Assembly (NCBI GenBank): GCA_027624955.1
Contig: JAQBTG010000001.1
Span: 1 to 64,000, forward strand
From: Pseudomonadota bacterium
Lineage (GTDB): Bacteria > Pseudomonadota > Alphaproteobacteria > UBA828
Direction: 5' to 3'
Length of the DNA: 64,000 bases
Positions 31,598 to 62,407 of the stretch are shown here, in pieces. Within the stretch, counting starts at the first letter, position 1; each line of letters begins with the position of its first letter. The translations under genes were made by a program, and so were the position numbers. The notes beneath the pieces were generated by a model. That model had not been told where the DNA came from and made no database searches. It was given only the letters and a program-made list of their open reading frames with translations.

Positions 31598-31684
<87 letters not shown>

Positions 31685-31726: not shown

Positions 31727-31813
31727 TGGTGCGGCTGAGAGGACTTGAACCTCCACGGGGTTTCCCCCACAGCGCCCTCAACGCTGCGCGTCTACCAGTT
31801 CCGCCACAGCCGC
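31727..31813 (-). tRNA. tRNA-Leu (anticodon GAG)
   Basis: Minus strand, 87 nt including CCA. Acceptor GCGGCTG pairs with CAGCCGC. The anticodon loop TTGAGGG gives GAG, reading CUC and CUU. Class II variable arm TGGGGGAAACCCCGT and T-loop GGTTCAAGTCC. It is separated from the other tRNA-Leu by 42 bases. Body sequences outside the anticodon stem are highly alike, suggesting tandem duplication. Confidence 0.97.
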
Positions 31814-47251: not shown

Positions 47252-48649
47252 ATGACGGATCATGTGATTTCTACCGTCGCCCGTGGCGCGACGGCAGCCG
47301 GCGCCGCACCCACGCGGCACAGAGATGCCGCCGCGAAACGCCTCTCCGCCGCCTTCCACACCGAGGTGATGCGGGGTCTGTTATTTTCTACGCGCGCCCG
47401 GGCGATCGCACTCGGCGCCATTGCGGTTCTCGTCGCGCTGCAGAATTGGGAGGCCGGCGCGGCTGCCACACTTTATTTCGAGGTCATCCTCGCGGTATTT
47501 TTCTTGCTCGGCGTTGGGCATTACAAATTGGCGAAATCGCGCTTCGCCCACCCGCTGCACAAATATCTATTTACCACGGCGGATGTCTTGCTGCTTGGTG
47601 TCGTGATCCTCTTGCCGGCGCCGTTCGATGACAGGTTCGAGTCCGCCGCACTTCATTTGCGCGGCCCAAATTTTCTTTATTTCCTGATCATTATGGCCGG
47701 CACCATCCTGACCTATTCACCGCGTCTGGTGATATGGAACGGCATCGTCACCATCCTGGCGTGGAGCGCCGGCGTGTGGGCAATCATCTCACTGCCCGAA
47801 ACCATCACCTTCATGGATTCCCCCGCGACCCGCCCGGCTGAGGAAACGCGTCGTATATTTCTCGACGAGAATTTTGTGTTCGTCATGGGCTGGGTGCAGC
47901 AAATCGTCATTTTCGCCATCTTCACTGGCATCATGGCGTTGGTGGTGTGGCGCGCCCGGCGTTTGGTCGAGACTCAGGCCTCAACCGAACGCGAGCGCGC
48001 CAATCTTTCGCGCTATTTCTCGCCCAATATGGTGGATGAGCTGGCTGCCTCCGACACGCCCTTGGGCGCGGTCCGGCGGCAGAATGTCGCGGTGTTGTTC
48101 GCCGATATCGTCGGCTTTACCGGCATGAGCGAGACGCGCAGTCCAGAGCAGGTCATCGCCCTGTTGCGCGGCTTTCACGGCCGCATGGAAGAGGTCGTAT
48201 TTGCTCATGGTGGCACGCTCGATAAGTATATCGGCGATGCGGTGATGGCGACGTTCGGCACACCGCATACCGGGTCGCGCGATGCTACCGACGCGCTTAC
48301 CTGCGCCATCGCCATGGCCGATGCGATGGCAACATGGAATCTGGAGCGCATGGCAGAAGGCGAAGCACAGGTCCGCGTCGGCATTGGTCTGCAATTCGGG
48401 CCGGCGGTGCTCGGCGACACCGGCGGTGCGCATCGCCTCGAATTTGCCGTGATTGGCGATACGGTCAATGTGGCGAGCCGCTTGGAACATCTCACCCGTA
48501 CGCTCGACGGAACGATTGTCGCGGGCGGCGTTCTGGTGGCCGAAGTGCGGCGGGAAGGCGGCAGCGAAGCCTTGCTTGAAGGCTTTCGTGAGCGCACCGG
48601 CCAGGAGATTCCGGGGCGCAGCGGAGCAATCACCGTGTGGGCCAAGTAG
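47252..48649 (+). CDS. Membrane-bound class III adenylate/guanylate cyclase
   Basis: 465 residues. The N-terminal half has about six transmembrane helices (IALGAIAVLVALQNW, FEVILAVFFLLGVGHY, ADVLLLGVVILLPAP, YFLIIMAGTILTY, IVTILAWSAGVWAI, IVIFAIFTGIMALVVW). A short linker follows, then a catalytic domain from about 285: VAVLFADIVGFTGMSE (first metal Asp), LDKYIGDAVMATFG (purine Lys and second Asp), EFAVIGDTVNVASRLE (base Asp and transition-state Asn/Arg). All catalytic residues are present, and the Lys/Asp pair predicts ATP specificity. A near-consensus CRP site lies 260 bases downstream, which may be functionally linked. Confidence 0.92.
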   Translation: MTDHVISTVARGATAAGAAPTRHRDAAAKRLSAAFHTEVMRGLLFSTRARAIALGAIAVLVALQNWEAGAAATLYFEVILAVFFLLGVGHYKLAKSRFAHPLHKYLFTTADVLLLGVVILLPAPFDDRFESAALHLRGPNFLYFLIIMAGTILTYSPRLVIWNGIVTILAWSAGVWAIISLPETITFMDSPATRPAEETRRIFLDENFVFVMGWVQQIVIFAIFTGIMALVVWRARRLVETQASTERERANLSRYFSPNMVDELAASDTPLGAVRRQNVAVLFADIVGFTGMSETRSPEQVIALLRGFHGRMEEVVFAHGGTLDKYIGDAVMATFGTPHTGSRDATDALTCAIAMADAMATWNLERMAEGEAQVRVGIGLQFGPAVLGDTGGAHRLEFAVIGDTVNVASRLEHLTRTLDGTIVAGGVLVAEVRREGGSEALLEGFRERTGQEIPGRSGAITVWAK

Positions 48650-48661
48650 CGGTTACAAAAC

Positions 48662-48684
48662 CCTCTCCCCAAGGGGAGAGGGGG
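48662..48684. terminator. Strong inverted repeat after the cyclase gene
   Basis: CCCTCTCCCC-AA-GGGGAGAGGG, 13 bases past the cyclase stop. It has no T-run on the plus side, while the minus side ends in TTTT. It probably acts as a bidirectional barrier or mRNA 3' end. Confidence 0.5.
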
Positions 48685-48772
48685 AAAGCAAAGCACGCGG
48701 CGGGCGCTCAGTTCGTCCCACCAACCCAAACCCTTCCTTCTCGCCGGGGCGGAAGGGCCTAAAATTTTACGC

Positions 48773-48808
48773 AAAAAAAAACCGGGCCGGGTTTTAAGTC
48801 CGGCCCGG
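48773..48808 (-). terminator. Rho-independent terminator, minus strand
   Basis: Read on the minus strand: CCGGGCCGG-9-base loop-CCGGCCCGG followed by nine T. It is the strongest terminator-like structure in the window. It lies 167 bases past the sixA-like stop, far for a simple gene terminator. Confidence 0.85.
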
Positions 48809-48885
48809 AGAGGAGGGAGATGAGATTCGCGGAATGCCGCGCTTCTCTCTTCCGGGAGGGGTACATAGAAGATACCCATGATCAT
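48773..48885 (-). ncRNA. Candidate small RNA with anti-Shine-Dalgarno tract
   Basis: The minus strand from about 48885 to the terminator could form three hairpins: GGGTA/TACCC, CGCGG-CATT-CCGCG, and the terminator stem. A single-stranded tract CTCATCTCCCTCCTCTCC is complementary to purine-rich ribosome binding sites. C/U-rich anti-SD loops are a known feature of alphaproteobacterial sRNAs. A CRP-like palindrome lies just upstream. The 5' end and -10 box are not determinable, so this is a hypothesis. The alternative is a long 3' UTR of the sixA-like mRNA. Confidence 0.45.
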
Positions 48886-48907
48886 GACGATTCTAGGGCA
48901 AGGCGGC

Positions 48908-48923
48908 TGTGATCAGCGTCACA
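48908..48923. promoter_or_regulatory. CRP/FNR-superfamily binding site (TGTGA-N6-TCACA)
   Basis: TGTGATCAGCGTCACA matches the E. coli CRP core TGTGA-N6-TCACA exactly and is fully palindromic in its arms. It lies in the gap next to a cyclase gene, upstream of the candidate minus-strand sRNA and downstream of the sixA-like stop. Confidence 0.55.
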
Positions 48924-48974
48924 ACATGATGATTTTATTGGTTTATTTTGTAACTAACGAAAAAATAAGCTGGA

Positions 48975-49541
48975 TCAAATCAGCTCTTTGGGAGTGATGA
49001 AAGCACGCAGCATGGCGGTGCCGGGCGCAAGATGCGCCCAGACCTCCGAATCAGATGTCAATCTGGCCAGCGCGCCAGCGGGAAAGTCCCGCGCGGCCTT
49101 GCGCGCTGCCCGCCCGCCACCGCTTCCCGCGAGCAGCCCGACAAGCGCATGGAGGCCCGGATTATGCGCCACCAGCAGCACCGCATGGGCCGCTTCGGGC
49201 AAACATCGGAGGACCGTCAGCAGTGTTTCCACGCTGGCCAAATTGAGGTCCTCACGCACTTCGAGTGGCGGCGGGGAATCCATTGCGCCGGCTAACAGTT
49301 GGGCGCTTTCATGTGCGCGCCGGGCGTTTGAGCAGAGTATCGCATCCCAGGTGGCACCCTCGTCTTTGAGATGTGATGCCAAACGGCGGCACTCGACAAT
49401 TCCGCGCGGTGTCAGCGCCCGTGCCGCATCGCCTTCGGCGTTTCGTGCCTCGGCCTCGCCATGGCGCATGATGTAAATGCTTTTGATCTTTGATCTCCTT
49501 GCCGAAAGCGCGCCGCCTCCTGTTAAATGGCGCGCCGTCAA
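48975..49541 (-). CDS. sixA: SixA-like phosphohistidine phosphatase (histidine phosphatase superfamily)
   Basis: The core IYIMRHGEAEARN carries the RHG catalytic motif. DAILCSNARRAHESAQLL and VLLVAHNPGLHALVGLL supply the other phosphate-pocket residues. It removes phosphate from phosphohistidine proteins such as phosphorelay domains. The start is uncertain. The listed end is a TTG at 49541 without a ribosome binding site. A perfect AAGGAG (49495-49500) lies 7 bases before an in-frame ATC at 49487, exactly where family proteins begin (xKSIYIMRHGE). The next ATG would remove the first beta strand. It is divergent from the acyl-CoA synthetase gene. Confidence 0.85.
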   Translation of the reverse strand: MTARHLTGGGALSARRSKIKSIYIMRHGEAEARNAEGDAARALTPRGIVECRRLASHLKDEGATWDAILCSNARRAHESAQLLAGAMDSPPPLEVREDLNLASVETLLTVLRCLPEAAHAVLLVAHNPGLHALVGLLAGSGGGRAARKAARDFPAGALARLTSDSEVWAHLAPGTAMLRAFITPKELI

Positions 49542-61379: not shown

Positions 61380-61396
61380 GCGAGGGAGGGGCTCCG

Positions 61397-62407
61397 ATGA
61401 CAGATTTCCTCGACGCCCTGGTTCTGCTCACTAATTTTGTTCTTGTGCCGGGCCTGGCCTATGGCTCGCAATTGGCGCTGGGTGCGCTCGGCGTGACGAT
61501 CATTTACGGCATTTTACGCTTCGCCAATTTCGCGCATGGCGATCTGATGGCGTTCGGCACCATGGTGGTGATTCTCTTCACCTGGTGGTTCCAATCTATG
61601 GGCGTCAGTATTGCGCCGCTGCCAGTGGCGCTCTTGGCGCTGCCGATCGGTATTGTAGCCGCCATTGCGATGAGCCTTGGCACCGACCGCCTGGTCTATC
61701 GCTTTTACCGCCGCCGCAAGGCGCCTTCGGTCATCTATATCCTGACTTCGATCGGCGTCATGTTTGTGATGAACGGCATCGTACGTTTCATCATCGGACC
61801 GAACGATCAGCGCTTTACCGACGGCGCGCGTTTTATCATCAAGGCGAGCGAGTTCAAAAAGGCGACCGGCCTGCATGAGGGCTTGGCGATCAAGCTGACG
61901 CAAGGCGTGACTGTCCTGGTGACTCTGATTGTCGTGGTATCGCTATTTCGCTTCTTGCAGAAATCGCGCACCGGTAAGGCGATGCGCGCTTATTCCGACA
62001 ATGAAGATTTGGCGCTGCTGTCCGGAGTCAGCCCGGAGCGCGTCGTGTTTTATGCCTGGGTGATCGCGGCGTCGTTGGCGGCCATCGCCGGCACGCTCTA
62101 CGGCCTCGATAAAAGTTTCAAACCATTCACCTATTTTCAGCTGTTGCTGCCGATTTTTGCCGCCGCCATTGTCGGCGGTATTGGTAATCCTCTCGGCGCC
62201 GTGGTCGGTGGTTTCGTCATCGCCTTTTCCGAGGTGACCATCACCTACGCTTATAGGAAATTCCTGCGCTATCTGCTGCCTGATGACTGGGCGCCTGAGA
62301 GCTTGGTGCAGTTTCTCTCGACCGATTATAAATTCGCCATTTCCTTCATCATCCTGGTGGTCGTGCTGCTGGTGCGCCCGACCGGCATATTCCGCGGGAA
62401 CTCGTGA
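61397..62407 (+). CDS. livH: Branched-chain-amino-acid-type ABC transporter permease LivH
   Basis: 336 residues, about eight transmembrane helices. The family opening YGSQLALGALGVTIIYGILR followed by FANFAHGDLMAFG, and the cytoplasmic loop SRTGKAMRAYSDNEDLALLSG with GVSPERVVFYAW contacting the ATPases. GGGAGGGGC precedes the ATG. The C-terminal end overlaps the livM start by one base. A central insertion (FIIKASEFKKATGL) is longer than in E. coli LivH. Confidence 0.92.
   Translation: MTDFLDALVLLTNFVLVPGLAYGSQLALGALGVTIIYGILRFANFAHGDLMAFGTMVVILFTWWFQSMGVSIAPLPVALLALPIGIVAAIAMSLGTDRLVYRFYRRRKAPSVIYILTSIGVMFVMNGIVRFIIGPNDQRFTDGARFIIKASEFKKATGLHEGLAIKLTQGVTVLVTLIVVVSLFRFLQKSRTGKAMRAYSDNEDLALLSGVSPERVVFYAWVIAASLAAIAGTLYGLDKSFKPFTYFQLLLPIFAAAIVGGIGNPLGAVVGGFVIAFSEVTITYAYRKFLRYLLPDDWAPESLVQFLSTDYKFAISFIILVVVLLVRPTGIFRGNS

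Follow-up and report, generated by a model that had tools for sequence, protein, structure and literature searches.

A candidate CRP-activated small RNA gene with anti-Shine-Dalgarno-like blocks downstream of sixA in an uncultured alphaproteobacterial lineage

A conserved element between two convergent genes

The window (the whole 64,000-nucleotide stretch of DNA analysed) contains a gap of 325 bp at positions 48650-48974, flanked by a membrane class III adenylate/guanylate cyclase gene (47252-48649, plus strand, PF00211) and a convergent sixA-like histidine phosphatase gene (48975-49541, minus strand, PF00300). The question raised by this locus is whether the gap holds a gene of its own and, if so, what controls it. 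A first-pass annotation, made from the letters of the window, had proposed a CRP-controlled sRNA gene on the minus strand. The window genome (G000) is a draft of 3.58 Mb in 84 contigs, 98% complete; its host belongs to an uncultured alphaproteobacterial lineage that is probably marine, judging from the sample codes of related metagenome bins. The explanation that we consider best, and hold to be probable, is a stand-alone, CRP-activated sRNA gene in this gap, whose product would pair with Shine-Dalgarno (SD) sequences.

When 142 relatives were searched at the DNA level, the element turned up in two members of the same genus, G001 (79% identity) and G002 (82%). A reading of the sequence after sixA in the remaining members of the family then revealed a fourth copy, in a genome of another genus (G008, L015), where the layout is kept with little sequence identity. 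This copy sits between sixA and the orthologous cyclase gene. Its CRP site, CTTCCTCC, is perfect, its hairpin differs in sequence, and its terminator, GGGCCGGC/GCCGGCCC, comes with a T run; the distance from the CRP site to CCTCC, counted by eye, is 48 nt in the window and in G008 alike. That two genera share the element, in four genomes, supports the proposed minus-strand gene. The comparison of the gap among relatives, which had been suggested as a check, showed that the operator, the spacing to the -10-like hexamer, the C-rich block, the hairpin pairing, the terminator and the synteny with sixA were all kept, and the case for a predicted gene, and for its being non-coding, is built on that comparison.

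DNA and covariance-model searches of the relatives, the family and the order returned, beyond the window genome, only G001 and G002, and missed the G008 copy. A composite pattern run on 385 genomes of the class gave one match beyond this element (G217), with zero for the reversed control; by eye the G217 match has no hexamer at +21, and it was taken as chance. As far as so strict a pattern can tell, the family appears confined to this lineage.

The sixA-like gene is the constant upstream neighbour and adjoins the sRNA in all four genomes. The cyclase gene adjoins it in G000, G002 and G008, not in G001, so with three of four loci its adjacency is only suggestive. In G001 an unrelated minus-strand ORF (L006, 597-1451) stands in the place of the cyclase, next to the retained sixA and sRNA, and a search of this 87%-complete genome yielded no orthologue of the cyclase. 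Conversely, G003 keeps the cyclase while lacking the sRNA, and a scan of cyclase loci in public genomes found no sRNA element beside the cyclase on the G003 contig (L032/L192). Two G+C palindromes, CCCTCTCCCC-TTGGGGAGAGGG at 48661-48682 and CCCTTCCTTCTCGCCGGGGCGGAAGGG at approximately 48733-48759, lie in the stretch that separates the cyclase gene from the terminator of the sRNA, and have the look of terminators of the cyclase gene or of dispersed palindromic repeats.

Operator, regulator and promoter geometry

The annotation had pointed to a perfect CRP-like site upstream on the minus strand, and the palindrome TGTGA-N6-TCACA (TGTGACGCTGATCACA) is indeed present at 48923-48908. It is the sole site in the window with at most one mismatch (chance expectation 0.78). 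Perfect sites number five across the 3.58 Mb of the genome versus one for the reversed-pattern control, and sites with at most one mismatch number 37 versus 26, a modest enrichment; at the genome's density of perfect sites, ~0.0005 would be expected in the 325-bp gap. The arms are identical in the four copies and the inner six bases vary (CGCTGA, CCGAAA, CTAGAT and CCAGGA), a pattern characteristic of an operator bound by a protein. Immediately upstream, an A/T-rich stretch (48924-48957, minus strand), kept within the genus in the three-genome alignment and not in G008, is a possible contact for the alpha subunit of the polymerase.

The window genome encodes two CRP-type paralogues. Both have a cNMP-binding part, and their recognition helices (TSRETV and TTRETV) resemble the one in E. 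coli CRP. The C8-type CRP homologue is found in all four sRNA-bearing genomes, and it and the sRNA are both missing from the genus members G003 (94% complete) and G005; G004 (84% complete) has the CRP homologue, and the sRNA was not found there. Given the small numbers and possible assembly gaps, this co-occurrence supports the assignment of the regulator but does not decide it. The annotation had read a cAMP-linked RNA from the placement next to the cyclase gene. Such a link would be carried by the CRP site and not by the neighbour, because the cyclase adjoins the sRNA at only three of the four loci and pairing of the sRNA with the cyclase mRNA is at the level of chance.

The alternative that survives best is that the sRNA is real while its operator serves another member of the CRP/FNR group or another ligand (cGMP or none), so that it would not report cAMP. 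FNR sites have the form TTGAT-N4-ATCAA, and the site here is a canonical CRP site and not an FNR site; the CRP homologue, moreover, matches solved cAMP receptors. We regard this alternative as rather unlikely, with the two paralogues of similar recognition helix speaking for it, as do the lack of a reliable way to tell the ligand from the sequence and the response of Sinorhizobium meliloti Clr to cAMP and cGMP alike (PMC10127613).

In class II CRP promoters of E. coli, where the centre of the site is at -41.5, the 16-bp palindrome and the -10 hexamer are 21 nt apart. The -10-like hexamer CATGAT (48881-48886, minus strand) begins exactly 21 nt after the palindrome, so the predicted sRNA promoter has the class II arrangement. 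The same position holds CATTAT in G001 and G002 and CAAAGT in G008, an xAxxxT pattern (A2/T6) in 4/4 sRNA promoters. A second conserved perfect CRP site, also with a variable centre, was observed in four genomes just behind crp and ahead of a DUF2336-like gene (L070, at G000:C8:193-208, L071, L072 and L073). Each member of this set has a TAxxxT hexamer at class II spacing (TAACAT, TATGTT, TACTCT and TAACCT at +21; A2/T6 in 4/4), and the set makes up another candidate for a CRP-activated promoter, adjacent to crp. When offsets 5 to 49 were scanned, 21 alone gave A2/T6 in all eight promoters, the runner-up reaching 4/8; the sets are mutually independent, but members are related within each set, so that 8/8 does not represent eight independent events. 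The class II geometry predicts a start at ~48874, about 11 nt downstream of the start near 48885 that had been proposed, and we prefer it as the better supported of the two. Another -10 candidate, TATCTT (48874-48869), is conserved in the genus and absent in G008, and would place CRP at approximately -53; it was rejected.

The promoter geometry bears on the second alternative, in which the structure, lacking a promoter of its own, only ends the sixA mRNA as its 3' untranslated region and terminator, or is an sRNA processed from that mRNA. The element does lie downstream of sixA on the same strand in 4/4 genomes, and a possible separate sixA terminator (48986-48959, minus strand, from a consensus scan), which overlaps the sixA stop codon, occurs in the window only, inspection by eye having shown no conservation among relatives. 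All four genomes, however, have the conserved operator and the -10-like hexamer at class II spacing in the interval from sixA to the RNA, and the conserved RNA begins ~100 bases past the sixA stop; we therefore consider this origin improbable.

The predicted RNA and its relation to known sRNAs

With a start from class II geometry and an end at the T run, the stand-alone gene would give a minus-strand sRNA of ~102 nt (48773-48874). The 94-nt window RNA folds at -39.4 kcal/mol with z = -4.4, and none of 200 shuffles was equally stable; across the four genomes the z-scores were -4.3 (window copy), -6.7, -5.8 and -3.3. Its 3' end is an intrinsic terminator (48773-48808) of the form that had been described, with a 9-bp G+C stem (48808-48800 with 48790-48782) followed by nine T (48781-48773), and all four genomes have a terminator. 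The hairpin GAGAG..CGCGG-CAUU-CCGCG..UCUC (48822-48849, minus strand) has, in G002 and G008, changes on both sides of the stem that preserve its pairing, although with four copies the covariation is thin. Of the two hairpins that had been described, the 5' one was predicted in G001 and G002 but does not belong to the lowest-energy fold of the window copy.

Two C-rich, anti-SD-like blocks are found in the RNA. Block 1, CCCCTCCC (48854-48861, minus strand; CCCCUCCC in the RNA), is identical in three genomes and reads CUUCCUCC in G008; the mean unpaired probability of CCCCUCCC in the window copy is 0.98. Block 2 is the C/U tract UCUCCCUCCUCUCC (48807-48820, minus strand), which the genus retains and G008 has mostly lost, and which is both less conserved and less exposed than block 1. 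The annotation had given this tract as 18 bases; the tract is there, but one A lies inside it, and the pure run is 14 bases (48820-48807). The element is thus conserved, non-coding and structured, and has its own predicted promoter and terminator, the features by which a trans-acting sRNA gene is recognised.

No Rfam family matched the element, whether the gathering threshold was applied or E values up to 10 were admitted. (The only above-threshold Rfam matches in the window are two neighbouring minus-strand tRNA genes, at 31601-31684 and 31730-31813.) The closest relevant family was the alphaproteobacterial sRNA suhB/mmgR (RF00519), with a weak partial resemblance over 48842-48767; at 16.4 bits versus a gathering score of 41 the element is not a member.

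Two described systems resemble it in other ways. CyaR (RyeE) of enterobacteria is a cAMP-CRP-activated sRNA, and its gene would share CRP dependence with the one proposed here, the operator and spacing of which fit class II geometry. CyaR pairs with the SD sequence of ompX (PMC11795201). The C-rich blocks exposed here would correspond to such a pairing seed, while the target tests gave no specific mRNA. CyaR differs in host class, neighbours and structure, and there is no sequence match; its covariance model gave no match under either of the Rfam cut-offs. AbcR1/AbcR2 (alpha-r15) and NfeR1 of Rhizobiales, at ~100-115 nt and with anti-SD motifs, are similar to the predicted sRNA. In AbcR, CUCCUCCC is in the loop of the 5' hairpin and UUCCCCUC between the stem-loops, and the anti-SD motifs of AbcR1/2 have been proven by mutation (PMC8844928). 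This layout is close to that of blocks 1 and 2: in the predicted folds of G001 and G002 a 5' loop holds block 1, though not in the lowest-energy fold of the window copy, and block 2 precedes the terminator stem. AbcR1/2 depend on LsrB and RpoH1 (PMC8844928), in contrast to the CRP operator found here, and the alpha-r15 family model gave no match at E up to 10. We take the observation to be real and the sRNA family to be new: it would work like CyaR, is AbcR-like in layout, and on its sequence belongs to neither.

Targets, mechanism and significance

Gene content is compatible with an Hfq-assisted RNA, with hfq present in three of the four sRNA-bearing genomes and not found in G008 (78% complete). 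Given the exposed CCCCUCCC and the C/U tract, both like the AbcR1/2 motifs, and hfq in 3/4 genomes, the sRNA may repress multiple targets at their SD sequences. Predicted duplexes with the ribosome binding sites of the cyclase, sixA, livH and a putative lipoprotein gene were no better than those of shuffled sRNA, and we see no sign that the neighbouring cyclase would be controlled by the sRNA. The livH site, at 61382-61399 of the window, belongs to a LivH-type branched-chain amino acid permease-like gene, whose SD GAGGGAGGGG is an 8-base full complement of CCCCUCCC. A search for GAGGGAG-N-ATG, of which part of the sites were assessed and many, most of them in G001, left out, returned the putative lipoprotein gene, whose SD is shared by all three genomes, together with CobU-like genes as a pair in two genomes. 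The lipoprotein gene (L111 in G000, L112 in G002, L113 in G001) has the SD GAGGGAG, a 7-base complement of the C/U tract, and is a weak candidate target; complementarity ends at 7 bp, so neither it nor the CobU-like match counts as evidence. A GGGAGGGG-N-ATG match in three genomes proved to be antisense inside a coding region and was rejected. In these simple tests nothing beyond generic SD complementarity was found, and no single mRNA stood out.

This outcome would also be expected if the sRNA were real but held a protein, as a CsrA-type sponge does, instead of pairing with SD sequences. GGA motifs are few, however, and by eye none lies in a hairpin loop, and the most exposed and conserved part of the RNA is CCCCUCCC; such a role therefore seems quite unlikely.

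A plus-strand ORF of 30 codons (48820-48912) behind AGGAGGGAG, given in the annotation as a competing reading, is open in the window but not conserved: it has 18 codons in G001 and G002, with a frame that differs between the two at the hairpin loop, and no counterpart in G008, and its apparent ribosome binding site AGGAGGGAG is formed by the strand complementary to the C/U tract. The 35-codon ORF on the minus strand (48866-48759) is likewise open in the window and not kept in relatives. That either frame encodes the conserved product is very unlikely, since neither is conserved and the element evolves like an RNA.

The stand-alone sRNA gene would then operate as follows. CRP, presumably bound to cAMP, would bind the palindrome at -41.5 and activate the class II promoter, and RNA polymerase would start near 48874 and stop at the terminator (48808-48773), giving the ~102-nt RNA. 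Its exposed C-rich blocks would most likely pair, with Hfq, to the SD regions of several mRNAs and so block their translation. A further step, which we put forward as tentative, is a local cAMP circuit in which the membrane cyclase, CRP and the sRNA form a linked module and CRP-cAMP lowers many mRNAs through a generic anti-SD RNA. If so, the sRNA would be an independently evolved counterpart of CyaR with its own regulon.

Much work has been done on the CRP-controlled sRNAs of gammaproteobacteria. In the literature on Alphaproteobacteria, the only precedent found for CRP-type control of an sRNA was SMelC181 of S. meliloti, which is directly induced by the CRP-like Clr-cNMP and is of unknown function (PMC10127613). 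The likeness is one of description, with no homology claimed, and its authors state that few such cases have been reported (PMC10127613). The second conserved CRP promoter, next to crp, may give this lineage an internal yardstick for the start points of its CRP-dependent transcripts. If the proposed sRNA gene is borne out, the idea embodied in CyaR would have arisen again, and cAMP would be tied to the control of translation in an uncultured marine group.
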